Notes under the pieces: generated by a model
Seen by the model: the letters and a program-made list of their open reading frames with translations, nothing else
What the model was told of the DNA's origin: nothing
The model's database searches: none
Made by a program: the position numbers and the translations under genes
Source: Crambe crambe
Taxonomy: Eukaryota; Porifera; Demospongiae; Poecilosclerida; Crambeidae
Direction of reading: 5' to 3'
DNA: 64,000 bases
Assembly: GCA_963924555.1 (NCBI GenBank)
Contig: OZ004589.1
Coordinates: forward strand, 5,146,001 to 5,210,000
Part shown: positions 16,101-48,200 of the stretch, in pieces
Numbering within the stretch: the first letter of the stretch is position 1
Layout: every line of letters begins with the position of its first letter

Positions 16101-19100
16101 TAGAACTTCGGTGATCTGGGGGATTACGTTTTAATTTCAGGCATGACCAATCAAATCTTGTTTCTAACACCTCTGAGATAGCTATGATATATACGTACCT
16201 GATAAAGAACATGATCATTAAGGGTCAGCTCAATTATCCCAGCCTGCCCAAAATCCGGTTGAAGCTTTTCACAAACTTCTTTTATATGTGAGCAAATGGA
16301 TTCAGGGACTTGCCAAAAAATTATGATGCAACCAGGATTGGCAGTTATAAATTTCAGCTGAGTAGGGTCAATAGAAAATTCACTTGCAATGTTTACACAA
16401 AGTTCGCTGAGTTTAGCTAATGTCATTCTTTTCATATCACCAGTAAATTTAGCTTTGAGCAATCTGACACCTTCATCCTTAACAATGGTACTGTGCACAT
16501 CCAAATAGTCCACAACAAGGGTCTCACGTTTATATTTCTCAACTTCAGTGCTGTGTTCCTTCAGTCTTTTCTCAAAGTTACACTTTTCATTCTCATCCTC
16601 AAAGCACTCATCTACTAGATCGTTCAGTAATTGAGAGTTGAGAAAATCTAAACCTTGATTCTGAGATAATTCTCTCATCATTTCTTCCCAATTAGATATT
16701 TCAGTTAACCTTTGATTTTCACTTCGCAATTTTAAGCCAAAGCCAGTGGTTAAGTAGACACGAAAAGGGCTCAAAGAAATCTCTTTACTATCCAAGTACC
16801 GATAGATATCTACAGTGATCTTTGCGAATTTCTTTCTCAAATTGACATATCCTTCCTTTGCAGCACGATTGATTGCTAATATATCAGTGACACAACACAC
16901 ACACACGTATAATGAACACGATAGTGTATGAGTAATAAGATAATTACATGCATGAAAATTAAGTAAACGTTGTAGACCAATTAATTAAACACATTGACTA
17001 TAATGATCAGTGTGATTTCTTGTTATACCAACAAGTGTGGAGGAAACTCATTCAGCTTGCTATATAGGTTTAGCTTGCAGTTAACATCCGATTCATAGCA
17101 CTGGTATTAGCAGTTTACTGCCATTTGTGTAACCCTTGTTTTTAAACATGAATTTATTATAAAAATATTAAAAAATAGCAGCGCACCATGGAGGAAACTA
17201 GATCATGATGTCTCATTACTACAGAATCATTTAGCTAATAACAGTAAACCATGCATAAAGGAAACTAGTGATGAATTATTCAGCACACTATTACAACATC
17301 TGGTTCATAATGTGGAATCAAGTTGCTCGATTATCAGCACACCATGGAGGAAACTAAATCATACGTAACTATACAGAATCAATTAACTATAGCTACATAC
17401 ATAGGTGCTGGAAGTGGGGGGGCCAGGGGGGCACTTGCCCCCCCCAGTTTTCTAGAATTGGGGGCACAGGGGGGCACTCCTCTGACAAGCTAGTTAGCTT
17501 TAATAGTTCAAAGTCCTTATACTACAAGTTAGTGGTTAGAGGCAGGCTCACACTAATCAATTTAGCTATGCTGACCAGCTGCATTCTTAGCAGTGAGTAA
17601 AATGGCAAAGCAAACTTCACTGACCTCTTGGATTCCTCAAGCCAAGAAGAGAAAGAGTGTAGAGAGGTACAGTGCATAGCTAGGAGTAGATCCTGTCATT
17701 AGCTACAAGTTAGTTGGTTACCATATTGATTTCAGATTTGATGACATGAGTGAAAGTTCTGAGTACGAGTCGTCTGATTGTTTGTCTCTGGTTAGTGATG
17801 ATAGTCATGATGATTATGATCTTGAAGTAGTAACAGAAGCTCCACTATCAGCTTCTGGTACTTCATGCACAGCAGCATGTTGTGACTTAGAAGGAGCAAT
17901 TTCAGGTCAGCCATATCAAGTGAAGAGCCAACATATGATTGCTAAAACTAAAAGGATTCAAGGGCGTAAGTTGAGGCAGTTTTCTACTAATTGGTATAAG
18001 AAATATTCTTGGCTGATGCTTTGTACTACATCCTCCAAAGCATTTTGTTATTTATGCAAATTTTGCTCTGAGAAAGGTTATCTATTAGACAAATATGTCG
18101 ACGAAGCATTTGTTAGCAGAGGGTTTAACAATTGGAAGAAGGCTCATGAGTGTTTTAAGAAGCATGCCAAGTCAAATTGTCATAGAGAGTCTGCCATGAA
18201 GATAAAAATGATGAAAAAACCTGGCATAGATGCTCAACTTGATGAGCAGCTAAAACAAGATCAGCAGCTACATCGCAGAATGCTCTTACTCCAGCTTTCT
18301 TCTTTACGATATCTGCTGCACCAAGGATTAGCAATACGTGGACATGAACAAATTGAAGGCAATTTGATGCAGCTGTTACTCCTGCGTAGTGAAGAGTGTT
18401 GTGAATTAAAGCAGTGGATAAATGAAAAGAAATACTTATCAAGTGAGATAATTAATGAAATGATTGCTTTAATGGGTCGAACTATTACATTACAACTTTT
18501 AGAAGATATTCGTGCAGCTTATATATATGCTTTGATTGCAGATGAAGCAACTGATATAAGCAACAAAGAACAGCTCTGTATATCACTTAGATGGGTTGAT
18601 GAAACATTTGCTATCCATGAAGATACTCTTGAATTGATCAACTTACCTAAGACAGATGCAGAAACTATTACCACTGTTATTAAAGATTTTCTGATTCGCC
18701 ATCAACTTCCTATAACCCAGTGTCGTGGTCAGGCATATGACGGAGCTTCTACTATGAGTGGCCACATCAGTGGTGTAGCTTGTAGAATTCAGCAGGAAGA
18801 GCCAACTGCTATATATGTGCATTGCTTGGCACACAGTTTAAACCTGTGCTTGCAAACAGCTACTAGACATCTAACACCCATCAAGGAAGCTTTGGATCTA
18901 GTCATGGAACTGGGAAAGTTCATAGATCTTTCGCCAAAACGATCCCATTTGCTAAAAACCCTACAAGAACAACTTTCACCTGATTCATCATCTATTAAAA
19001 TGCTCTGTTCAACACGCTGGACCGTGCGTACAAAAGCCATTGATGCCATTATAAAAAGCTATAAAGCTCTTGCAGCAGCAATGACTGAAATTCATAATGG

Positions 19101-22100
19101 CCAAAGGGATGAGTATGGAATGAAAGCTGGTGGATTTTTGCAGTCACTTGACAAATTTAGTACCTATTTTGGACTAAAGCTTTCATACCTTGTGTTCTCA
19201 GCTGCAGAACAACTATCTATTACACTTCAGTCAAAAAACACCACAATACAAGATGCTGTACTGAGTGCTAATTTGGCAGTCAACTTTCTAGATCGGCAAA
19301 GATGTGAGGAGTCATTTGAAATATTTTACTCAAAAATTTTGAAAGATACTAAGGATTTGACATCAGATCCCATTCTACCTCGCTACAGACGGATACCTAA
19401 TAGGCTTGATGAAGGAAGAAGTGAAGCACACAGATTTGAAGATGCTAAATCATTATACCGGCAGCAGTATTATGAAGCTTTGGAAACAGTGAAAGGAGAA
19501 TTAGTGAGGCGATTTAATCAAACACGCGGTATGCCAGTTGCAGCAGCTTTGGAAAAGTTACTTCTTCAATCTTTTAATGGAAAATTTGATCTTCCTGATG
19601 AAATCTCTATGTATTTGAAGGATATAAAGCTAGATCGTCTCAAAGTACAGCTCCAAATGCTCCCTGATCTGCTAAACACATACAATCAAAAAAATCCATC
19701 CACTAAAATTACATCTGTTACAAATTTGAGAACTCTGTGTGAACTAATGAACAACATTGACAGCAGCAAGGTGATGTTTAGTGAAGTATGTCAACTTTTA
19801 CATATAGTACTCACAATTCCCGTCACTTCCGCTACTGCTGAACGCACATTCTCTGCTATGCGTAGATTAAAAAATTTTCTAAGATCTACAATGACACAAA
19901 CACTGTTTAACAATGTCATGCTCTCACATGTTCATAAAGACAAAACTGATAAAATAAACTTATTAACAATAGCTGATGAATTTATATCTGTAAATGATAG
20001 GAGAAAGCATTTTTTTGGAATGAAATAATTATCATACTAAGTGCGGGAGTGCCCCCTCAGATTGAAACTGATTCTGTCACCTATGACATAGCTATCTGTA
20101 ATAACAGTAAACTTAAACAATGGAGGAAACTGAATACACAAGCAATAAGGCTTCACAAACACTCAATTATACTAACAAGGAAATGGTTATAGAATAGTCT
20201 GATATCATTATAATCACAAGTAGCTATATGCACTGTAGCTAGCTGGTCGCACTGTTTTCAAAAATTGCTGATTTCCTTGCCTATCCCTATAGCTAACCAT
20301 ATAAGGTACATCCTGCAGACCACGACAGCTGCTGCAATAGTTTATCTAGCCCAGCCAAACTCCGCCAATTTTAATGTCTGACAACAATACTGTTTCATTA
20401 TCAAAAGTACTAGGCCATTAAGGTCACATGACCCCGTTTCTGGGCCAATCCAGTCTCCCGTTTTTCTAGACTGACTGCTGCCTGACAGGGGTCAAGACAT
20501 CAAGAGCCTTTCTCAAATTCTTGTAGATGACCTGTAGTAAAAGTTGCTAAATATAACCAGAGCCTATATTAAAACTTTGACTTTGATATAGCATTTACTG
20601 CACATAAATCTATCAATTTGAACAGCTTCTTGGCCCTTGTCTCTTCCAACTTTTCTTCCCACATTGAAAGAATGTCTGTGGAATCAGAAATGGATTTCTT
20701 CTGTGTTACTGAAGCGAAGTTCACGCATTCATTATCATACGTCACGAATACGTCACAAATATGCAATAATTATCCATCAAGCGATCTGATTGGTGGCGTC
20801 AAAATCTTGACGTGAGACACAAGTCATTGGTGCTAATGTCCCCAGACCCTTTCCCTTCTCTTGGGTTGGTAAGGGTCACCGCTATGCCAGTTGGTTGTTT
20901 GGAAAGAACAAGTCACAAAGGTCATGAGTTTAAACTCTTATTTCAAGTCTATAGCTACTTTCTACACAGGTCTCAAAAGAACTACAGACAACTAGCTAAT
21001 ACATCTTCATTATTATTATGAGTTCAAAGAATTCAAGATATGTTTTATTCATAAAATTGACTTTGTTATCATTACCATCTGTTTGAGCACTATCTAGAGG
21101 TGTGCCTTTTGCTGTTCATTTTGACTAAGCTGCCACTATAGAAAACAGGTGAGCACAAAAAAATTTACTGTGGGGATGCCATGGCCCCAAAACCTAGCTA
21201 GGTATATACTCTCCTAGCTCCTTCGAGACAAATATTAGCAGATATAGCTAGCTACATACATACAGAAAAATTACATAGAAAATAAAAATTTCTTCTAATA
21301 ATATAGGGATCTAGCTCGATTATGTGCTAGACTGCAGACTATATTTTGGGGCCATCCATCCCTACTTGACATTTTTTTTTGCGCTAATGTAAACATGCAT
21401 GTCACTCATGGCAAGGGCAGATTGAGCTGCTTTGCAGCTTGATACGCACAAGCACTCAAGTTTCTAGCTATGGATCTGACTCAAATAATGAATCTTTGCT
21501 CTAAGAGTCCAACAAGCTGCTAGGAAACGAGATCATCTTAGTGCAGACTATTTTTAACCTCCTCCAGAGACCTCCACCAACCCATATCTGTTCCTTTGAT
21601 ATGTGTGCAAAATTATGATTATACCGTGCATGTGATAATCTACGTTCCTGGAATTCCAAAGTGACAAGTTGTTGATGCTAATGTCTCCAGACCTTTTCCC
21701 TTCCCTTGGGTTGATAAGGGTCGCCACTATACCAGACTACTATACTACATCATTATGTAGGTGTGGTTCTTTCATCATTCTAATGTACCTTGCCCCCGAA
21801 TGTTATTACAGGAATGTTATTACACAGTCATAACCATCACATGTGGTTTATTTCATGGTTATATGTACATAATAACATTCCTTAATGGCCTGGGCTTAGT
21901 GTAGACTGATGTACACACACACCACCATTTACCACAACCACCACCATGGAGTTAAATTTTACATAGCTATTCAACTGACAATACTAAGATCTCTGCTTAC
22001 AATTTGGAGGAGGTGGAGGAAGTGAATCATGTGATCCTAACCCTTCACGATGTGACTTTGGTCCTCCTTTGGTAAATAATGGAGCTCCTGGGGGAACCAA

Positions 22101-24260: not shown

Positions 24261-25896
24261 TCTATAAATAGTGGCCTAAACTTTATTTTTCATTGTGCAT
24301 TGTATGGTACAGCTAGCTATAGCTGTAATCTCTCTCCTCTATAATATATAATGGGTCACATCAGCCAATGTAGCACCTGACATGCACACGCCTCCCAGGG
24401 TGCATTCGGCACTAATTACATGATGTATGTGTCATGGAAATAAAACGATCACGGGCAAATAAAGACAACTGTTTTGTTGAAGAAGAATCAGGCACTACTA
24501 GTGCATGAAAGCCTATTACTGGCATGAAAAACACACATTTATTCAACAGCTCATACGTACAAACACAGACATGGGACAATAATGATCAATGGATAATCAA
24601 ACACATTAGAGCTAAGCTAGATTACTTATGAATGGAACAGGTTTGCGTTAAGGATATGTCCGGCGAAACTATGAGGCTAGTCAAATTCACTAAAATGCCC
24701 CAAAACTATGTTCAAGCCAAAATGATGTTCGACTGAACCGGGATTGGAAACGCAATATAAACTGCCCGGCCACTCCTTATTGCGCATGCCTGTATTAATT
24801 AATACAATAAGAAAAAAGATAATAATTATCAAATTTGGGTATTAAGTGTGCAGCTATTGATCCTGGTGATTTCTTTCAAGTTCTTCTTCACCTCTGCACC
24901 TTCTTGTTCTCTGCCCGAACTGTGAGTGAAGATATTGAAGCCTCCCTCTCAGTTGATCATCCCTGAGGAATATAGCTAATATTGAAAATTAATGTACTCT
25001 AATCGTTGAGCTTTTTCTTGGCAAGGGAATGCATACATTTGGAAAGCATAGGTGGAGGGCATGAAGGAATAACTACTTGTTATGAATATAAATTGGGGTC
25101 ACTAGAAACAACTTCACTTTTTCAAAAAAGGTATGCAAAGACACACCCAGCAAATGTGAACTATTGGCTGAAACTCTTGAATACATGCAAAGTTCACTAC
25201 ATTTTAGGTATGAGGGCATGAAGTAGACTGTACACTAAACTCTGAAACTGTAAGTTGAATATTTACTCTTTCATGTAAGAGGATACAGGTACACAAAGCC
25301 AAAACAGGCTAAAACAGGCTGGTATGGGTGTCCTAGCAGCAAAAAATTTGCTTTTTGCACGAGTAAGGTGGTGAAGTTACTAGCTATGCTATGGACTTAC
25401 TTCTGAACTTCGAGAGGTCGATTCCTCCACGTTTGGCTTTTTCAGCTCTTCCACGCACCGCAATACGGATTGTACCGCGCATGTTGTACATTGTTGCTAT
25501 GGCACGGGTGTTTTGATCCCAATATGCGCATGGACTTTTTCACTATGCCTAGTAATACCATAGCAACCGTGTTTCCTGGTTTAGCACTATGCACTTAGTG
25601 ACCATTTCCGGGGTCATAGTACTTTACCAGCCACGTGGCAATAGAGAAGAAGAGTAGCTCTACAAACTGGTGAAAAAACGGGGGAAAAAGAACAAGTGTG
25701 AGAATATTTACACGCGCTTGAACTTTGAAGGAGTCTAACTCTTGTTTATACCATCCAGAAAGTTTGTAGACAGGAGAATAGCAGTGGAAAAGAAAATCCC
25801 ATCATCCTGCTTCTAGGTAATATCAATATTATTTTACTTATAATTTTTTCCAGAGAGTTACAGCCATATGTATTATGCATGTTATTTGGTTCAGTG
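24261..25896. other. Intergenic sequence between gene A and the RAG1-like gene
   Basis: No gene was supported. The last 400 bp (25420-25700) is richer in GC, with short inverted GTTGCTATGG (25493) and CCATAGCAAC (25559) motifs. It may belong to the 3' end of the RAG1-like element. Confidence 0.4.
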
Positions 25897-28800
25897 TTAG
25901 ACATCCTTTGGTTTGGGTTTAGGCTGAGGTAATTTAGATGTGTTGATAGGACATATCTGCCTAAAGTGCTCTGTCATTATGCACTCCAGACGTTGCACAC
26001 TGTTAGGCATATTGATGTAGCTCCTTTTGATGGCGTTAAAACGAGCATGAATAGACTCTGCTCCCTGTTCCCCAAGAAAACCTAAACCAACTCTCCATTT
26101 TTTCAGGAACGGAACCATGTGGTCTTCCAGCATGTGCATTTTTGGCAGAACTGTCGCATTTGGAAATGAATCCCTGTAGAAATCCATGAAGTCTTTGATT
26201 CTAGAGTCTATTGAAATTAAAACAGGTTTGTACAATGTATATTCATGGCATCCTACTTACCAAGCTCGTCTATTTCCTTCTCTTCCAGAACCCTACTGCT
26301 GTCATATATTGAATGACATCTAGCAAAATAACTGAATGCCTTAGTAAAGGTTTTTTGAATGAATTGTGCCTTTGGTAGAAGTTGTGAGCATCTGTCCTGG
26401 GCCAACTCAACAACAGAATTGCAGAGTGTGGAAATATTTACTTCCTGCTGACAAACACATCTTTAACACCTGCTTGAAGGTGCATACTTAGTTTACCTTG
26501 AGTGTTCTATGCACGTGGTTACCAATAAATGTTCCACCATAATAGGCCTGCCTATGCACATTGAATGAGATCAATGCTGTATCCAGTGCCAAACAAAAAG
26601 GGCCATCCTTTCTTGAAAAGCTCTTCTTTTTTGTTAGTGCTGATAATTCTGTTGTCTTTATGATTGAGGGAGTATATATTTAATTTTATTAGGTGTATGA
26701 CTACTTACTATGGCATCCAACATTGCTTTATGCTCTTTGATGGCTTTGGTTACGGATACGATTGATGGATCTGATGGACCGCTGGCATTGAGAGCACAAA
26801 GCGTCAGAGTCTGATCAAGCCACTTCAGATGTTGTTCAAAGCTGTCTTTTATATCCAGCAACTCCCTTTCCTTCCTTACCAAGTCACAGTACTTGGCATA
26901 TCCAGGTGAGTCTTCTTCTTTTGAGGAGAGTAGGGCCATTTGTATGTCCAGCTCGTGACATTCATCCTCCAATAGTGTGAAGAGACGAAAGAAGATGCCA
27001 AGAGTGATGTGTAAGCCAGGAAGACAGACCTAAGTGACAGGTTAGTATATTATTTGTATTTTACTCTATGTATTATTTGGTAATGGTACCGATTCGATCT
27101 CAATATTAAAGATATGTGATGCCATAGCATTGTTAAATTCTTTGGCCCTCTTGATGTTGCCACCATCAGCAAGGAAGTTGGAATAGTCCTTCTTGATCCC
27201 TTCCAATGTTCGTTTGGTGCTGGTACCACGTTCGGCTATTGGGATTTTCAAATCTTCACTTTTAATGAGGCACCAGAGACAATTGTGGCGACCTACCCAT
27301 TTTTTGATAATTATTTGAAAGGAATAGGACTATATACTTATATCCTTACCACTTGCTCCTGATAACCCATACAAGTTACAAAGAAACTCGTAGTCCCCTG
27401 ATAGGAATACACGTGTGATGTGGTTTTCACCTGATGAGTTCCTATAATAATATACTGTAGACCTTTTCTTCTGGTACTATTATTATGCATGTACCTCCAT
27501 ACAAGCTTTTTTAAATCATCAACTTGTGACTTGTATGCATCCAAGGAGAGATGCAGGTTAGTTTTGCTGTCTGATGCCTCGTAGGCTACAAACACACATG
27601 TGTTTGTGACTGCATTTGGTTTTGAGCAGTTTCCAATTTGAAAATTCATCTTCATTGACCCCCCACCTTTATCGCCACCAAGTTTGATCCAGATTTCATT
27701 ACGAGGAATAATCCCATGTGTAGTCAGTCTGGACAAACTATTATAATTTAGGTAATAATAATATTTTTATTTGTGTGGTTTTTATACCTGTCATTTTGAT
27801 CTAGTATCTGTTTCACTTTAGCCACTAGATCAGGAACATAGGCAATCGGTGCCTTTCTGATTTCCTCTCCACCATGATCAAGGGGAAACGAGAAGGCAAC
27901 TAGTTCAGACTTCAGATTTGGACCTAACAACTCCTTAGATATGGAACGCTGCTTCGCTTCACTACCTAAATGTATCTTCCAAGCTTTCATCCACCTATGA
28001 ATGAAGGTTTGTATTGGATAGTTGTGGTTTAATTATTTGCATACCTCTTCATTATTCTCATTTTATTCCATGGAATTGAAAGGTCTGCCTTCAATGCCAG
28101 AACATCCTCAGCTGGAACTTCTGCACGAGCCTCCCCTACACATGCTTGATCCAGCAAAGACTCTCTCTCAACTTTGGTCAACGTCTTCAATTCATATTGG
28201 AGTTGTTCCATCTGCGAGCCTTTGCTGACTAGCTCACAGACATTGCTAATTTCATCGCTCCTCCTCTTCAAGGTTCTCCTGGAGGCTTCACTTGAATCTA
28301 TTCGGGGTGTGGTCACACGTACTACTGATATCGGCTAGTAAATTGTAATTTTGAAGATAAAATTGGTTAACGAATTAATTTTAGTGCCTTACCTTTCCAC
28401 TAGCTGACCTACAACTAATGAATCCATTGGTGGGCATCAATTTGTCAACTAGTAAGCCTATTGCTTGTTTTTCCATTCGAGATTGAGTAGGGATGTCTGA
28501 GGTGTGCAAGAGATGGTTGACAGTGATCTTTGAGGGAGATGGAATTTCAATGTGGGTGCAGTTTGATGTAATATGCAGCTTCAGATCCTTAAGTTGCATC
28601 ACTTCTCCACAGTCATTCTTACACCTCACCAAAAGGCTACTGAATACTTTCATCACAACTGGAGATGGAATGCACAGGTGATGAGGCAGTATAGACCTTC
28701 CATTGCAGTTACAGAGAAGAGAGCTACCACTTTCACAACTGCTGACAATACAAGGTACACATATATAGTGCCGGCAAGTTGCTATTTCCAGTGGTTGATT

Positions 28801-29294
28801 CGGAATGCAGGAACAGCTCAAACAGAGCAAATCATTCAGCATGGAATTGGGAAGGAAATAGGAGGGTTGTAGTTGGAAATTCACAAATTGGGGTGGATCG
28901 ATTTCAGCTACTCTGGTCATTATCGATCTATTCATGTTATCTTTACTTGGTCGCCCTTTCACTTCTAATGCTACTTTCCTTCTTTTAGGCTTCCCACCAC
29001 CTGACACAGTCAAACAAACTTCACAATCTTCAGAATGTGGAAGCCATGATTTTAATTTTAAATTGGTGGATCGTACTTCACCCCTTTCCTTTGCCTTTTG
29101 GATCTCTTTCAATGTCAAGTAGCAGCTGTTGCACACCACTGGAGGGTAGATATTGTCAGATTCAGAAGAGACCTCCAGGCTGAGCACTGATAAGAGGATA
29201 CCCTTACATGCAGCACTATATTATGTTCATATCCTTTAGGCTTCTTTCCACACACCCTACATCTATTTTTAATGCACTTTTTATGATGCTCCAT
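25897..29294 (-). CDS. RAG1-like transposase/recombinase gene, ten exons, one frameshift, about 970 aa
   Basis: Minus-strand exons: 28393-29294, 28045-28334, 27788-27994, 27495-27737, 27350-27441, 27090-27292, 26709-27029, 26497-26655, 26261-26444, 25897-26207. All borders are GT-AG with matching phases, except that exon 1 needs one extra base near 29206, where the frame slips just after EHNIVLH. The N-terminus matches the RAG1 layout: CRVCGKKPKGYEHN, CNSCYLTLKEI, WLPHSEDCEVC, a RING (CLSCSC...CRHYICVPC...CNCNG) and a further zinc motif (CKNDCG...HITSNCTH). The core has KLGGDKGGGS (D600 position of RAG1), SGDYEFLCNLYGLSGASG then HNCLWC (D708 and the C-x2-C zinc ligands), HMLEDH (H-x4-H ligands) and GEQGAESIHARFN (E962 position). 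Residue matches are from memory. It resembles N-RAG-TP/Transib-type elements. Function is unknown. Confidence 0.88.
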
Positions 29295-29942
29295 AGACAC
29301 TGAAAAAAAATTATAAGTTAAATATTTTATTTATAGTATTATAATTTAGACCTTCATTTGTTTTATCAGTGTAATACCTGAATTATTATTGTTAGGTCCA
29401 GACCACAAGGAATTTCAAGACGGTGCCTTCTCCAATGAATACCGATGTTTCATAGATAGTTGCTATGGTATCGATGCGCAGTTGTGTTTAGCGTAAAAAC
29501 CACTTATGCGCGTGGTTTAGACCGGGTTTTCCCTTTGTTGTTTGACCTTTTGGGGCTATCTATAGGGCTTCACAGCAACCCAAAAGGTCACAAAGCCCCT
29601 AGCAACTACTGCCCATCGTTGTCATGCATAATGTAATTTAATTTTGTTAGACCGGAAATGTTGAACACAGTCTAATCGCCAGTGGACGTAATTAATTACC
29701 ACGTATTAGCGATGACGTCATAAATTGTAGTCGAAAAACAGAAATTGTGCGGGTGTTTTGTATGGACTGTAACTGCCTCTTAGAAGCCGAAGAAGCAATA
29801 TGGAGAGCACTTTCTGCTAAAGATGAAACCTAGGTAAGTATTACTGCACAGTAAACATTGTTGCAAGCTATAAACAGGCAGAAAATTCAGCTATATGTTG
29901 CCTCTGACTAAGAGCATGCACATCATGAACAATAACTTCCTC
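29295..29942. other. 5' flank of the RAG1-like gene with a possible divergent exon
   Basis: This 650-bp spacer is richer in GC than its surroundings. On the plus strand, 29763-29832 reads MDCNCLLEAEEAIWRALSAK up to a stop, and a strong donor (TAGGTAAGT) follows directly. An acceptor-like CTATTCAG lies at 32569-32576, just past the Penelope insertion. It could be a first exon of a divergent transcript. The product is not recognised and the evidence is weak. Confidence 0.3.
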
Positions 29943-30424
29943 AATAGAATTAGTTCTCATAAAATTAGCTTATGAAACAAACCACCAACGTTTCGACCAG
30001 AATACTCTAGCCTTCATCAGGGTGATACAAAAAATGCACACAGAAACGTCCTTATATAGCTACGCTCGTTATCTAGACAACGCACATGCATACGCCTATG
30101 GATATTATATTATAGCATGCCAATACCTGAAGTCGTAAACACTATTTCCCTAAGGCTTTAAGCGTAGAAACCCAGCAACCTTGAAGTTCTAGACCTACAT
30201 CCCTATTAAAACGCTGCTCTTCTGAAGATAAACCAATATGAAGCGCTTCTTTTAGAAGCAGCTCCTTCCTAGTCCTAGCTTGATCTACAACTGAAGCTTC
30301 CTTCCATAATATAGGATGATGATTACTCCAGGCATGATCAGCAACAGCAGATTTCTCTTGTTCTCCTCGTAGGCAAGCTTCCTTATGCTCCTTCAGCCTA
30401 GCTTCCAGCCTTCTCACCGTTCCA
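29943..30424 (-). repeat. Left inverted copy of the Penelope element 3' end
   Basis: Reading on the minus strand, this arm repeats the last 94 codons of the element's protein (from GTVRRLEARLKEH to the stop) and the 3' untranslated part. It contains no independent gene. It faces the right arm at 32038-32519. Confidence 0.92.
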
Positions 30425-32320
30425 TCAGAGGAAGAAGTTTTAAAATTAGGCTTGAATTTTGTTCCAGCACCTAAAAAACTCCCTTTAATTAATACAGTGG
30501 CAGCAGTAGAAGGAGGGGCTAGGAGGCTGAAGGAGGAAGAGGCCAATGACCTGAGAGGGAGAGTATGTGGACTCATCAGAAGGGCGAAACTACCCAAGGA
30601 CAATTTGAGCAAGGACCAGAGGAAGGCTTTGAAAGACCTGGAGAGGCTTGATGATGTGGTTATCTTGCCGGCGGACAAAGGGAATGCCACGGTCCTGATG
30701 ATGAAGGATGATTATGACTCCAAGCTTATGGGGATGTTGGGCTCTGACACCTACAGTATCCTAAATAAGGATCCAACGAAAACCCAGGAGGCTAAGTTAA
30801 CTAGGGAATTAAAAAGATTAGAGAGGACAGGAGAGATTCCAAATGAATTATACAATAGGATTAGGCCTGTAGGGAGTAAACCTCCTAGGTTATATGGTCT
30901 GCCGAAAATACATAAGGCAAATGTTCCTTTAAGACCTATTGTTGCATGTATAAATTCTCCATGTTATAATCTCTCTAAGTATGTAACAAAGTTAATTTCC
31001 CCTTTAGCGGGAAAATCTGATTCCTATGTTAAGAATTCTGAGCATTTCATTAGCATGATTAAAGATTTGAACTTAGGTCCAAACGAAACACTTGTTAGCT
31101 TTGATGTTTCTTCTCTCTTTACTAATGTTCCGGTAGATGAGGCTGTGGAAGTTATACATGATATGCTGGTGAAAGATGAGACACTGGATGAGAGGACTAC
31201 GCTGTTACCTGATAGAATAGCAGAGCTTTTAGAAACATGCCTTAACTCTACTTATTTTAGTTATAAGAATGTTATTTACAAACAGGTAAGAGGTGCTGCC
31301 ATGGGTTCTCCTGTTTCTGCTGTGGTAGCTAATCTGTATATGGAGTTTTTTGAGGAACTGGCCCTGAAAACATCACCAGTGAAGCCTAGAGTTTGGAAGA
31401 GATATGTGGATGATACATTTTGTATTATGAAGAAAGGTTCTGAAATGGTGTTCCTTGAACATTTGAATAAAGTTAGACCTTCAATTAAATTTACGGTAGA
31501 GTTAGAGAAAGATGGTAAACTTCCTTTCTTAGATTGTTTATTAGAGGTGGGCAATGATGGTAAAATTTTATCCACAGTATATAGGAAACAGACACACACG
31601 GATAGGTATTTAAATTATAGATCACACCATCCAATACATGTAAAAAGAGGAGTTATTAAAAGCTTGTATGACAGAGCCACAAGGGTTACTACGCATGAAG
31701 AGGACTTGGTTAGGGAGCATATGCATCTTAAAAAAGTTTTTGTGAATAATGATTATCCAGAAGCCTTTCTCTCTGCAACTTTAAATCCCATAGCACCGAA
31801 ACCTAGGGAAAATAGTAGTAATAGTGAAGAAAGACAGAAACAAATAGTAATTCCATATGTTAAAGGCCTTAGTGAAGACATTAGGAGGGTTTGTAGAAAG
31901 TTTGATATTAGGGTTGTTTTTAGATCAGGGGTTAGTTTGAGATCCAAACTTTCTAAGATTAAGGATAAGTTACCATCTGATCAAAATTCTAATGTTGTTT
32001 ATAGGGTACCTTGTAGTTGTGGGAAATTTTACATTGGTGGAACGGTGAGAAGGCTGGAAGCTAGGCTGAAGGAGCATAAGGAAGCTTGCCTACGAGGAGA
32101 ACAAGAGAAATCTGCTGTTGCTGATCATGCCTGGAGTAATCATCATCCTATATTATGGAAGGAAGCTTCAGTTGTAGATCAAGCTAGGACTAGGAAGGAG
32201 CTGCTTCTAAAAGAAGCGCTTCATATTGGTTTATCTTCAGAAGAGCAGCGTTTTAATAGGGATGTAGGTCTAGAACTTCAAGGTTGCTGGGTTTCTACGC
32301 TTAAAGCCTTAGGGAAATAG
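30425..32320 (+). CDS. Penelope-like reverse transcriptase with GIY-YIG endonuclease, 5' truncated
   Basis: The frame is open from the inverted-repeat junction (reads SEEEVLKLGLNFVPAPKK) to TAG at 32318-32320, about 630 residues. No ATG occurs in the first 80 codons, so the natural start is missing and the copy is 5' truncated. Reverse transcriptase motifs visible are VILPADKGNATV, PPRLYGLPKIHK, SFDVSSLFTNVP (first catalytic Asp), GAAMGSPVSAVVANLYM and RYVDDTFCIM (catalytic DD). The C-terminal endonuclease has VPCSCGKFYIGGTVRRLEARLKEH, the GIY-YIG pattern of Penelope-like elements. Transcription would run opposite to genes A and B. As it stands the protein probably cannot be made in full. Confidence 0.93.
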   Translation, partial: SEEEVLKLGLNFVPAPKKLPLINTVAAVEGGARRLKEEEANDLRGRVCGLIRRAKLPKDNLSKDQRKALKDLERLDDVVILPADKGNATVLMMKDDYDSKLMGMLGSDTYSILNKDPTKTQEAKLTRELKRLERTGEIPNELYNRIRPVGSKPPRLYGLPKIHKANVPLRPIVACINSPCYNLSKYVTKLISPLAGKSDSYVKNSEHFISMIKDLNLGPNETLVSFDVSSLFTNVPVDEAVEVIHDMLVKDETLDERTTLLPDRIAELLETCLNSTYFSYKNVIYKQVRGAAMGSPVSAVVANLYMEFFEELALKTSPVKPRVWKRYVDDTFCIMKKGSEMVFLEHLNKVRPSIKFTVELEKDGKLPFLDCLLEVGNDGKILSTVYRKQTHTDRYLNYRSHHPIHVKRGVIKSLYDRATRVTTHEEDLVREHMHLKKVFVNNDYPEAFLSATLNPIAPKPRENSSNSEERQKQIVIPYVKGLSEDIRRVCRKFDIRVVFRSGVSLRSKLSKIKDKLPSDQNSNVVYRVPCSCGKFYIGGTVRRLEARLKEHKEACLRGEQEKSAVADHAWSNHHPILWKEASVVDQARTRKELLLKEALHIGLSSEEQRFNRDVGLELQGCWVSTLKALGK

Positions 32321-32569
32321 TGTTTACGACTTCAGGTATTGGCATGCTATAATATAATATCCATAGGCGTATGCATGTGCGTTGTCTAGATAACGAGCGT
32401 AGCTATATAAGGACGTTTCTGTGTGCATTTTTTGTATCACCCTGATGAAGGCTAGAGTATTCTGGTCGAAACGTTGGTGGTTTGTTTCATAAGCTAATTT
32501 TATGAGAACTAATTCTATTGAATTTTTATCATGTTAGCTGAGAATAAGCAGAGTTTGAATAACTTCCTC

Positions 32570-42200: not shown

Positions 42201-45200
42201 TTATACCAACAAGTGTGGAGGAAACTCATTCAGCTCGCTATAGGTTTAGCTTGCAGTTAACATCTGATTCATAGCACTGGTATTAGCAGTTTACTGCCAT
42301 TTGTGTAACCCTTGTTTTCAAACATGAATTTATTATAAAAATATTTAAAAAATAGCAGCACACCATGGAGGAAACTAGATCATGATGGGCCATGATGTCT
42401 CATTACTACAGAATCATTTAGCTAATAACAGTAAACCATGCATGAAGGAAACTAGTGATGAATTATTCAGCACACTATTACAACATCTGTTTCATAATGA
42501 GAAATCAAGTTGCTCGATTATCAGCACACCATGAGGAAACTAAATCATATGTAACTATACAGAATCAATTAACTATAGCTATCTGTAATAACAGTAAACT
42601 TAAACAATGGAGGAAACTGAATACACAAGCAATAAGGCTTCACAAACACTCAATTATACTAACAAGGAAATGGTTATAGAATAGTCTGATATCATTATAA
42701 TCACAAGTAGCTACGTATATGCACTGTAGCTAGCTGGTTGCACTGTTTTCAAAAATTGCTGATTTCCTTGCCTATCCCTATAGCTAACCATAATTATAAG
42801 GTACATCCTGCAGACCACGACAGCTACTGCAATAGTTTATCTAGCCCAGCCAAACTCTGCCAATTTTAATGTCTGACAACAATACTGTTTCATTATCAAA
42901 AGTACTAGGCCATTAAGGTCACATGACCCCGTTTCTGGGCCAATCCAGTCTCCCGTTTTTCTAGACTGACTGCTGCCTGACAGGGGTCAAGATATCAAGA
43001 GCCTTTCTCAAATTCTTGGTGATGACCTGTAGTAAAAGTTGCTAAATATATAACTAGAGCCTATATTAAAACTTTGACTTTGACATAGCTATTAAAACAT
43101 TTACTGCACATAAATCTGTCAACTTGAACAGCTTCTTGGCCCTTGTCTCTTCCAACTTTTCTTCCCACATTGGAAGAATGTCTGTGGAGTCAGAAATGGA
43201 TCTCTTCTGTGTTACTGAACCGAAGTTCACGCATTCATTACCATACGTCACGAATACGTCACAAAAATGCATCCATCAAGCGATCTGATTGGTGGCGTCA
43301 AAATCTTGACGTGAGACACAAGTTATTGATGCTAATGTTCCCAGACTCTTTCCCTTCCCTTGGGTTGGTAAGGGTCACCGCTATGCCATACTAGTAGTAT
43401 AGTTGGTTGTTTGGAAAGAACAAGTCACAAAGGTCATGAGTTCAAACTCTTATTTCAAGTCTATACTTTCTACACAGGTCTCAAAAGAATTACAGACAAC
43501 TAGCTAATACTTATTATTATGAGTTCAAAGAATTCAAGACATGTTTTATTGACTTTGTTATCATTACCATCTGTTTGAGCACTATCTAGAGGTGTGCCTT
43601 TTACTGTTCATTTTGACTAAGCTGCCACTATAGCAGGCCCGTACGCAGGATTTTGAAAAGGGGGGTTACTAGGTTAATACACATGGAAAACCACACCCAT
43701 TTTAATGACCACACCCCTTAGAACAAAAATTAATTAGAAATCAAATGATAAACTCGCATTTTCCATTCTATGCGGATGTTTCTTAAGGAAAAGTTTACAC
43801 ACTTCATCTATATTTAGTTCTGGATAGTTTACATGAAGGTAGCTAACTAGGTATAATAGGTATGTACTGTACATCATGTGCAGTAAATTAGCTACAGCTA
43901 ACATATATGGGTACATGGACAGTTAAAGTGAAGTGACATGCATTTGTGTAGACATGGAACTGTCAGTGACTGAGTGTAATTAAGGTCACATTGAGCTAGC
44001 CAAGAAGCAGCATGCAACTAACTTCTTCATCTTTTTGAAAAATATGACTGAATTGTAGTATTTGTTCTCTTCCATTCTTTGCTCAATCATGTAAACTAGT
44101 TAGATGGCATGGCAGCAGTGTAGTGTATCTCTGTGTGTGCTGTCTTTGTGTGATTGTTAGTTTAACCTTTGTATCATTGCCTATTCATCTGTGGTTATTG
44201 GTTTTTGTAATTAGCATGCTATAAGACGTTCTAGAACTTTTAGTTCAATGCAGATCAGACTTTTGTAGCTATCTATAATTATTGTTGTTATTAAAAACTT
44301 GCCCTCAACTATAACATTGGCGACGAGGATGGCGACTACAGTGGTAGCAGCCACATACGGATCACTTCCAGAGTTTGATGCAGAAAACGAGTCTGTCAAG
44401 TCCTACACTGCTAGGGCTAAGATCTATTTCAGGGCTAATTCTATTCCTGATGGCATACAGGCTTCAGTGCTTCTGAGCTGCATTGGTGGAAAAACGTACG
44501 ATATCCTGGAAAGTCTTCTCGCTCCAGCTCCTCTGGACGAAGCAACCCTGGACACTCTAGTTTTAACGCTAGAAGAGCATTTTCAACCTAAGCCAAATGT
44601 GATCGCTCAACGTTTTACCTTCCATCAAAGGAATCAGAAGCCAACCGAAAGCATTGCAGAATATCTTGCTGCTCTTCGAAAGCTTGCTATCGACTGCGAT
44701 TTTGGCGCAAAGGAGGTACTGGAAGCAACCTTGCGAGATCGTCTTGTTGGTGGAATCAGAAATACCGCCCTACAGAAGAAACTGCTATCCACGAAGAATC
44801 TCACTTTCAAGGATGCCTGCGATGTAGCCAAGAGTGTGGAAGCTGCTGAAGCCAACGCTAAAGCCATTGGCAATGCACATGCCAGTACGACCACAACAAC
44901 TTCAGTCCATACTGTGGCAAAGTATAAGCAGAAAAGAGATAAGCCAAGCACCGTGTCTCCGCTCGATCAGAAAAAGCAACAGCCGTGTTATCGTTGTGGC
45001 AGACGAAATCATCTTCCCTCCGCTTGCAAATTTACCGATGCTACCTGCCATTCGTGCGGGAAGAAAGGCCATATTGCACCAGTGTGCCACTCCCGTCCAA
45101 AGCAACCGCAAGCTCCCAGGAAGCGACCACAATACGGAAGTCATCAGCCCAAGCCTACTCATTATGTGGGTATTGATGCCGCACCAGATGTAGAAGAGGA

Positions 45201-48200
45201 GGAGCTCTACTTATTTGCTCTTGGCAGCAAGTCTAGCCGGGAGGTGAAACCAATTCGGTGTAAGGTGCTAGTGGATGAAGTACCTGTGTGGATGGAGATT
45301 GATACTGGTGCTGAAGTCTCAGTCATGCCTGAAGCAGTCTATCTGTCACTATTTCCAGAAAAGCAGCTGGTCAAATCCTCAGTTATTCTCAAGACCTACA
45401 CAGGAGAAGTTATTCCAGTAGTGGGTGAGATTTCTGTACAAGTTCGACACAACTCACAGTCTACCCAGACGATGCTGGTGGTAGTGTCCACAGATGGCCC
45501 GGTCCTCCTGGGACGGGACTTGTTGGGAAAGATCAAGCTGGACTGGCAGCAGTTGAACCAAGTTCGAAGTGAGGAGCGACCGACATTATCAGCAGTATTG
45601 GACCAGCATAAGTCTGTTTTTAAGGATGAGTTGGGTACAGTGAGAGCCCATCGAGCCAAGCTGCATGTGTGTCCATCGACCATGCCAAAGTTCTTCAAAC
45701 CTCGACCGATTCCGTTCGCCATCAAAGACATCATTGGTGCAGAGCTAGACAAAATGGAGAAAGCTGGTATTTTGGAAAAGATATCCCATAGTGAGTGGGC
45801 AGCTCCCATAGTTACCGTACCAAAGAAAGATGGCACTTACCGTATCTGCGGTGACTACAAGGTCACAGTGAATTCTGCTCTGGATGTTGATCAATATCCA
45901 CTACCAAACCCGACCGATTTATTTGCATCCCTTGCTGGGGGACAAAAATTTTCCAAGCTGGACCTTTCAAGAGCTTATCAGCAATTATTATTGGATGATG
46001 ACTCCAAGAACTTTACCACTATTAATACTCATCAGGGGATGTACCGTTATACCCGCCTGCCATTTGGGATTGCATCTGCCCCTGCGATTTTTCAGAGAAC
46101 AATGGACTCAATATTGCAGGGAATACCCAACGTCATTTGCTATCTGGATGACATTCTGGTCACAGATACTGATGATCAAGCTCATTTGCAGAATCTGAAG
46201 GCAGTCCTTCACCGCCTGGAAGAGTGCGGTCTCCGAGTCAAGCTGGCGAAATGTGAGTTCATGAAAGCATCCGTTGAGTATCTTGGTCATCGAGTGAGCT
46301 CCCAAGGACTACATCCGTTGGAGAGCAAGCAAGACGCTATTGTTCAGGCCCCAGAGCCACAGAATCTTCAGCAGTTAAGATCCTATCTGGGACTTCTCAA
46401 CTACTATGGGAAATTTATCCCTAATCTGGCCACCATTGCACATCCACTCCACAATCTGCTGCGGAATAATGTCAAATGGAGTTGGACCTCAGAGTGCACT
46501 CGAGCTTTCAAAGCCACCAAACAGGCTCTGGTATCTTCAGATGTGTTGATACATTATGACCCAACTTTACCTATTTCCCTTGCAGGTGATGCCTCTGCCT
46601 ATGGGCTTGGAGCTGTGATATCACATACTCTACCAGATGGCACCGAACGCCCAATTGCATTTGCCTCCCGAACTTTATCATCAGCAGAGCAGAATTATGC
46701 TCAGTTAGAGAAGGAGGCTGCATCGTTAATATTTGGGATAAAGAAATTCCACCAATACCTCTATGGTAGGAAATTTACACTGGTAACCGACCACAAGCCA
46801 CTCACAGCTATTTTAGGCCCCAAGAAAGGTATTCCAACACTGGCAGCTGCTCGATTGCAGCGTTGGGCAGTTTTGCTTTCTGCATATTCTTATACGATTC
46901 AGTTTAAGCCCACAGCAGACCATTCCAATGCGGATGGCCTATCCAGACTACCACTCCCAGAGGTCACACTTGAGGGTCAGAGTGCAGAAGCAACCATTTT
47001 TAATATCAGCCAGATTGAGAACTTACCAGTCACTGCTGTGCAAGTTCGCCAAGCAACCCAAAATGATGCTGTTTTGAGCAAAGTATTGAAGTTTACACAG
47101 CAAGGGTGGCCCAAAGATGTTGAGAGCGATCTCATACCATATCAGAACAGAGCTCAGGAACTTTCAGTGGAAGACAACTGTCTTCTGTGTGGAAGGAAAG
47201 TAGTGGTACCTGCAGAGCTAAGAGAGAAGGTTCTAGAGGAGCTCCATGCTACTCATCCAGGAATTGCCAGGATGAAGGCCATGGCTCGCAGTCATGTGTG
47301 GTGGCCGGGGATTGACAAGCAAATCGAAGCTGTGGTAAAGAGTTGTCTCCCATGTTTGAGAGTTAAGCAAACTCCAGCATCTGCCCCACTACATCCATGG
47401 ACTTGGCCGCCCAAGCCATGGCAACGTATACATGTAGATTTTGCAGGGCCTTTCCTCAACAAGATGTTTTTTATTATCGTGGATGCACACTCCAAGTGGC
47501 CAGAGATATATGAGATGAGTTCGACTACATCTCAAAGCACCATCAATGTTTTGCGACATATGTTTGCTAGCTATGGTCTACCCCTCCAATTAGTGTCTGA
47601 TAATGGACCACAATTTGTGGCAGCCGATTTCACATCTTTCCTCGAGGAGAATGGAGTAAAACACATCCGTAGTGCCCCTTACCATCCTGCCACAAATGGG
47701 TTGGCGGAGAGATTTGTGAGGTCATTCAAAGAAGCCATGAAAGCTGCAGGAGCATCAGCCACATCTGTCCGCCAGAAGTTGGAGAATTTCCTGCTATGTT
47801 ATCGCTCTACCCCTCATGCAACTACCGGTGTAGGAGCGATATGGGGCCCCCCGTGATATGGGGCCCCCCGGCCGTATATCACTAGTGAAATGGGGCCCCC
47901 AGGGGGGCCTCAAAGCGCTAGTATTTTGGGGCTCCCCCAGTGAAATGGGGCCCACGCACGCGTGCTGGCAATCAGCTGGGAATAGCAGCTAGCTATGTCA
48001 GTATTCCTACACAGCCATCAAAAGAGTACTTGACAGGTGGAGTGTATCCTGATGGCTATGACAAGCAGTCTAAGAATGAAGAGGAGGAAGATCCACAAAA
48101 CTGCAGCATATAAAAATTGCTATAGGCGCTAGGCTGATGTGTTGATTTGGTGGGCAGAGGTTCTTGGAGTTAGCCCCTAGAGACACTAGGTTCATGCGTG

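Follow-up and report, generated by a model that had tools for sequence, protein, structure and literature searches.

A degenerate transposon copy, very probably of the Chapaev superfamily, with a RAG1-type N-terminal region in the sponge Crambe crambe

Kapitonov and Koonin (2015; PMC4411706) described the Chapa domain in Chapaev transposons of the lancelet and the starlet sea anemone and named it after these elements. In two Chapaev subgroups described there, Chapa is followed by a RING finger, as in RAG1, and the paper proposes that Chapa and RING became fused to the transposase core in an ancestor shared by the Chapaev and Transib elements. Chapaev has also been reported, as one copy, in Trichoplax, another early-branching animal (PMC2871265). 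The hallmarks of the superfamily given in PMC4079192 are target duplications of 3-4 bp, 5'-CAC/GTG-3' ends, and the C(2)C, LH, and H(4)H motifs. PMC3985635 equates DUF1280 with Chapaev transposases and assigns RAG1 to the same RNase-H clade as DUF1280. The RAGL transposons described in PMC7204232 have 5-bp duplications and RAG2L, with a ZDD in molluscs and amphioxus, and PMC9435367 reports RAGL in cnidarians in a main text where the words sponge, Porifera, and Chapaev do not occur.

The element described here lies in a 64,000-nucleotide stretch of the Crambe crambe genome (the window; C12:5146001-5210000). It is in all likelihood a degenerate copy of a DNA transposon of the Chapaev superfamily (CMC/CMCT clade), a one-protein element in which Chapa, RING, and C2HC regions are joined to a DUF1280-type DDE core. 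This placement is based on Pfam matches, motifs, and terminal ends. The original prediction for the locus was a RAG1-like gene. That one gene of an early-branching animal combines an N-terminus of RAG1 type with the DDE arrangement of the RAG1 superfamily holds up, but membership of the RAG/Transib lineage does not, as the core is DUF1280 and the target duplications are 4 bp long.

The gene is on the minus strand, from an ATG at 29294 to a stop ending at 25897, within an element remnant (25503..29667, minus strand) whose homology to other copies begins at 25503 and ends at 29667. Splicing predicted from the sequence gives ten exons and nine introns, each intron being 50-60 bases long with GT-AG borders. 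Residues are numbered throughout on the open 971-aa protein of the C6 sibling copy. Exon 1 (28393..29294) encodes the Chapa domain, the RING, and the C2HC finger, and is followed by exons 2 (28045..28334) and 3 (27788..27994). The DUF1280 core (PF06918, E 1.3e-14) is in exon 4 (27495..27737), which also holds the D490 codon (27671-27673). D565 follows in exon 5 (27350..27441; codon 27393-27395), C584-x2-C587 in exon 6 (27090..27292; at 27270-27281), and the PGLH motif with H654 in exon 7 (26709..27029; codon 27009-27011). Exons 8 (26497..26655) and 9 (26261..26444) precede exon 10 (25897..26207), which carries H893-x4-H898 (26119-26136), E919 (26056-26058), and the stop. All ten are on the minus strand. 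The prediction is confirmed: ten exons join an N-terminal region of RAG1 type to a DDE core in which C-x2-C precedes H-x4-H.

The copy had also been called near-intact. Two caveats apply: exon 1 lacks four bases after codon 25, and the right inverted repeat is missing. The deletion puts the first 25 codons in a different frame from the remainder of the gene. The C21 copy shares the deletion, which is not found in C6, C1, C20, or C5, and C6 has the same ten exons, open over 971 residues. The frame shift could alternatively be read as a real intron of 21-30 bases, leaving the window copy fully intact in reading frame, and both GT and AG do occur in the stretch at about 29225-29190. However, a reading of that region by eye finds no phase-restoring GT-AG pair, the C6, C1, C20, and C5 copies have four extra bases there, and exon 1 of C6 is one open frame. 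On these grounds we rejected the micro-intron as very unlikely. The window copy is degenerate, with the frame of exon 1 broken and the right end lost, and in its present form cannot be mobilised by a protein of its own.

The left terminal inverted repeat, CACGGGTGTTTTG, lies at 25503..25515, and the same end is present in the C6, C21, C1, C5, C17, and C20 copies. At the other side the window element is truncated at 29667 and the right terminal repeat is gone; C6, C21, and C1 extend 41 bases further to the repeat end. The right ends of C6, C21, and C5 read CAAAACACCCGTG, the last base is changed in C1, and the ends of subfamily copies differ from CACGGGTGTTTTG / CAAAACACCCGTG by about one base. 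The ends fit a 5'-CAC ... GTG-3' inverted repeat pattern. Among the assembled loci, seven copies have both ends visible, and five of these seven are flanked by perfect 4-bp target duplications: C6 (8970550-8974782; 4,233 bp end to end, GGGT on both sides, with the open 971-aa frame), C21 (CCTC), C3:3085509-3089751 (GAGG), C3:732833-734669 (TCTA; internally deleted, 1,837 bp), and C14:6249127-6253134 (CACA). The other two, C1 and C5, are without a target duplication.

The genome searched comprises 143,139,886 bases in 119 contigs. Its mitochondrial COX1 is an open frame if TGA is translated as Trp, and AGR codons fall as Arg at conserved arginine positions, a code that fits a sponge. Exon 1 matches at least 57 places in it, and the frame around exon 4 at least 40. 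From the best 20 and best 30 matches of the exon 1 and exon 4-frame searches, 32 loci were assembled, and both halves are present in 18 of them; the enlarged copies C1, C20, and C6:71x are included among the 32 by their N-terminal part only. The sibling copies that the original prediction had proposed to look for thus exist, some near-identical and others diverged. An alignment of C6 with C21 covers 4,216 bases at 99.72% identity; the window copy matches C6 at 99.40% and C21 at 99.47%. Alongside this young family, several older subfamilies are apparent in a tree of 19 cores. Since C21 carries the same 4-base deletion and has both ends and a duplication, the broken-frame version was itself copied. 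This version probably relied on protein supplied by another copy, or its own protein may start further down. In three copies (C1, C20, C6:71x-72x), several kb of other DNA lie between the two halves, with common breakpoints (window 27654, 28280); judged from these three, an enlarged version seems to have been copied.

The same data bear on whether the gene could instead have been domesticated from a Chapaev and now have a function in the sponge. It is a multi-exon gene, and downstream of the deletion 10 codons differ between C6 and the window copy, with six synonymous and four amino-acid changes, too few to test. The window copy is frame-broken with one end missing, however, and near-identical copies with target duplications stand at several places in the genome. 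The latter identifies a mobile element rather than a host gene, making domestication extremely improbable.

The window contains other mobile elements. Just right of the Chapaev truncation point sits a unit (29941-32521) with a Penelope-like reverse-transcriptase ORF (30338-32320) and a weak GIY-YIG match below the cut-off; the ORF is bounded by 487-bp inverted repeats (29941-30427 and 32035-32521) that are 99.8% identical. An open hAT-type transposase ORF of 782 aa, with DUF4371 and a dimerisation region, occupies 17680-20025, and other places in the genome hold relatives of it at 45% identity. An open gypsy-type gag-pol ORF (44269-47853) has a near-identical copy on the same chromosome at C12:5234128-5237688, which begins about 44 kb beyond the start of this one. 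Contig C3, which makes up 6.8% of the assembly, holds 16 of the 32 Chapaev loci, mostly at 0.3-4.3 Mb, as well as 22 of the 68 hAT match pieces listed and none of the 42 gypsy match pieces listed, in tallies that scored 58 of 610 hAT and 39 of 1345 gypsy candidates. It is possible that C3 is a graveyard of old DNA transposons.

The N-terminal half of the protein is plainly similar to RAG1. The Chapa domain, which corresponds to the RAG1 importin-binding zinc modules, lies at 29014..29294 (minus strand), the RING, aligned to that of mouse RAG1, at 28705..28824, and the C2HC finger after the RING at 28558..28623 on the same strand. Exon 1 alone matches RAG1_imp_bd (PF12560) in Pfam at E 3.9e-9 and residues 154-376 of mouse RAG1 at E 2.2e-8 (phmmer). 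With five diverged sponge members combined into a profile, residues 102-378 of mouse RAG1 are recovered at E 4.4e-19 and a short construct of RAG1 at 1.3e-10; TRAF6, the strongest match outside RAG1, reaches 6e-8. The N-terminal stretch of mouse RAG1 scores 75.4 bits, and 1000 shuffles that left every Cys and His in position reached at most 14.5 bits, with 0 of 1000 as high. The likeness to RAG1 therefore goes beyond the zinc ligands. The predicted fold of the N-terminal exon alone has a mean pLDDT of 30.7, too low to be of use. Elsewhere in the genome, one short match to RAG1_imp_bd (E 2.9e-4), at C1:7499391-7499495, is near none of the Chapaev matches listed.

Conservation of single residues was counted in 24 diverged loci after nine near-identical rows were dropped; the counts are based on tblastn rows that were anchored on the query and filtered by local identity, with the rows that have a residue at the column as denominators. 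In the Chapa domain, C12 and C15 are kept in 10/11 rows, C31 in 9/9, C56 in 13/13, C59 in 14/14, H88 in 11/11, and C92 and C95 in 8/8. The RING ligands C159 and C162 (13/13), C175 (14/14), C180, C183, and C196 (11/11), and C198 (9/9) are kept throughout, and H177 is kept in 8/14. In the C2HC finger the counts are 10/11 for C226, 11/11 for C230, 9/9 for H242, and 10/10 for C247.

The core is of a different kind. DUF1280 (2e-14) and RAG1_imp_bd are the only Pfam families above the cut-off in the spliced protein, and DUF1280 is also matched by five of six aligned core members. The candidate core residues are D490, D565, C584-x2-C587, H893-x4-H898, and E919. In the diverged loci the acidic residues are kept in 18/20 (D490), 11/14 (D565), and 17/17 rows (E919), the zinc residues in 15/16 (C584, C587) and 14/15 (H893, H898), and the LH motif (PGLH, H654) in 13/13. 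D565 and C584 are 19 residues apart, as are D708 and C727 of RAG1, and H898 and E919 are separated by 21 residues compared with 20 for H942 and E962. The string D-x18-C-x2-C ... H-x4-H-x17-23-E, picked after the protein had been seen, occurs in 8 of 5000 core shuffles. Patterns matched 30, 62, and 14 stretches in searches for relatives in IMG/VR viral and GTDB prokaryote contigs, none of which was confirmed.

It was this match of catalytic and zinc residues in order and spacing, together with the RAG1-type N-terminus and the joint clade of RAG1 and DUF1280 in PMC3985635, that could argue for a true RAG1L element of the RAG1 core lineage (Transib, ProtoRAG, TransibSU) in the sponge. Several results speak against it. 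First, the core, queried alone or as a six-member profile against PDB, finds no chain at E<=10, including RAG1, ProtoRAG, and Transib (6pqn), whereas the RAG1 core used as a positive control finds ProtoRAG RAG1L at 2.3e-68 and Transib at 0.0056. Core similarity to RAG1, ProtoRAG, and Transib is thus absent from these PDB sequence searches. Second, hhalign of the sponge core (25 rows) against mouse RAG1 scores 15.8, under the maximum of 25.8 in 60 shuffles; the best local match is at the E962 region, and we do not count it as evidence because it is below the shuffle background. The mouse RAG1 core has no hit in a search with the sponge family profile, and the PF12940 profile and the mouse RAG1 core found nothing in the sponge genome, a result of little weight as the search had no working positive control. 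Finally, the target duplications are 4 bp in 5/7 two-ended copies and 5 bp in 0/7, and the 4,233-bp C6 sibling, with just 414 and 417 bases outside the gene at its two ends, has no room for a RAG2L gene. We rejected membership of the RAG1/Transib lineage on target duplications, gene content, and core similarity, and regard it as extremely unlikely.

The Chapaev assignment is consistent with every hallmark in PMC4079192: the ends, the 4-bp duplications, and the C(2)C, LH, and H(4)H motifs are all present. A Chapa zinc domain followed by a RING is found as well, which is the feature of the Chapa-RING subgroup. By analogy with the superfamily, the core would bind the CACGGGTGTTTTG ends and cut and join with a 4-base stagger. 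Catalysis would be carried out by D490, D565, and E919, and zinc would be held by C584, C587, H893, and H898. The N-terminal region may aid dimerisation, nuclear import, or a ubiquitin-ligase-type self-control, as in RAG1.

If the two halves had been inherited together since Chapaev and Transib split, the core would be expected to be the half more similar to RAG1. Between the window family and ten diverged loci, N-terminal identity (0.33-0.46) is lower than core identity (0.49-0.62) in 10/10 comparisons; the ten were chosen from the 24 diverged loci, and as filtering the tblastn rows for local identity inflates both halves, the values carry no meaning beyond their order. In the comparison with vertebrate RAG1 this order is reversed, with plain similarity confined to the N-terminus. 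This is a hint that the halves of RAG1 have separate histories. If Chapaev-like and Transib-like transposons exchanged the Chapa-RING-C2HC module once their cores had diverged, this would explain why the head resembles RAG1 and the core does not, even though the head is the less conserved half in the sponge family. RAG1 would then be a chimera whose non-core part came from, or was swapped with, Chapaev. We put this forward tentatively and think it somewhat improbable. An episode of rapid change in the core of RAG1/Transib could also explain the reversed similarity, as could a divergence floor set by zinc-domain structure. PMC4411706 and PMC8355894 differ here: the latter favors recombination between Transib and N-RAG-TP instead of fusion in a common ancestor. 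If the exchange took place, RAG1 did not descend in one piece from the ancestor that Chapaev and Transib share. The 18 loci with both halves are a large alignable set for asking whether the halves of RAG1 were co-inherited or assembled.

Since the Chapa-RING Chapaev architecture is already published, the sponge host is the addition made here. A shallow look at the literature found no report of a sponge Chapaev that carries the non-core module of RAG1; PMC5745447 mentions Chapaev and sponge. A recently copied Chapaev with this module is now placed in a sponge. It is not a precursor of V(D)J recombination, nor an ancestor of RAG1 proper.

With vertebrate RAG1 the element shares the N-terminal zinc region (mouse 102-378) and the order D, D, C-x2-C, H-x4-H, E. 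Unlike RAG1, it is a mobile element and has neither RAG2 nor RSS, and its core similarity is undetectable by sequence. Like the ProtoRAG/RAGL elements of amphioxus and molluscs (PMC7204232), it has a RAG1-type N-terminus, a DDE core, and ends starting with CAC, but RAGL has RAG2L and 5-bp duplications where the sponge element has one gene and 4-bp duplications. CAC termini and CMCT motifs are common to Transib (PMC12730594), which differs in its 5-bp duplications, its lack of a RAG1-type N-terminal region as described in PMC8355894 and PMC4411706, and its dissimilar core. N-RAG-TP of Aplysia is likewise a transposon with a RAG1-like N-terminal region; compared by description only, it differs in being made wholly of N-terminal-like sequence according to PMC8355894. 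The closest match is to the Chapa-RING Chapaevs, again compared by description (PMC4411706), which combine Chapa, RING, and a DDE core in one transposase with a Chapaev-type core and ends, and from which the element differs in its sponge host and its ten exons.
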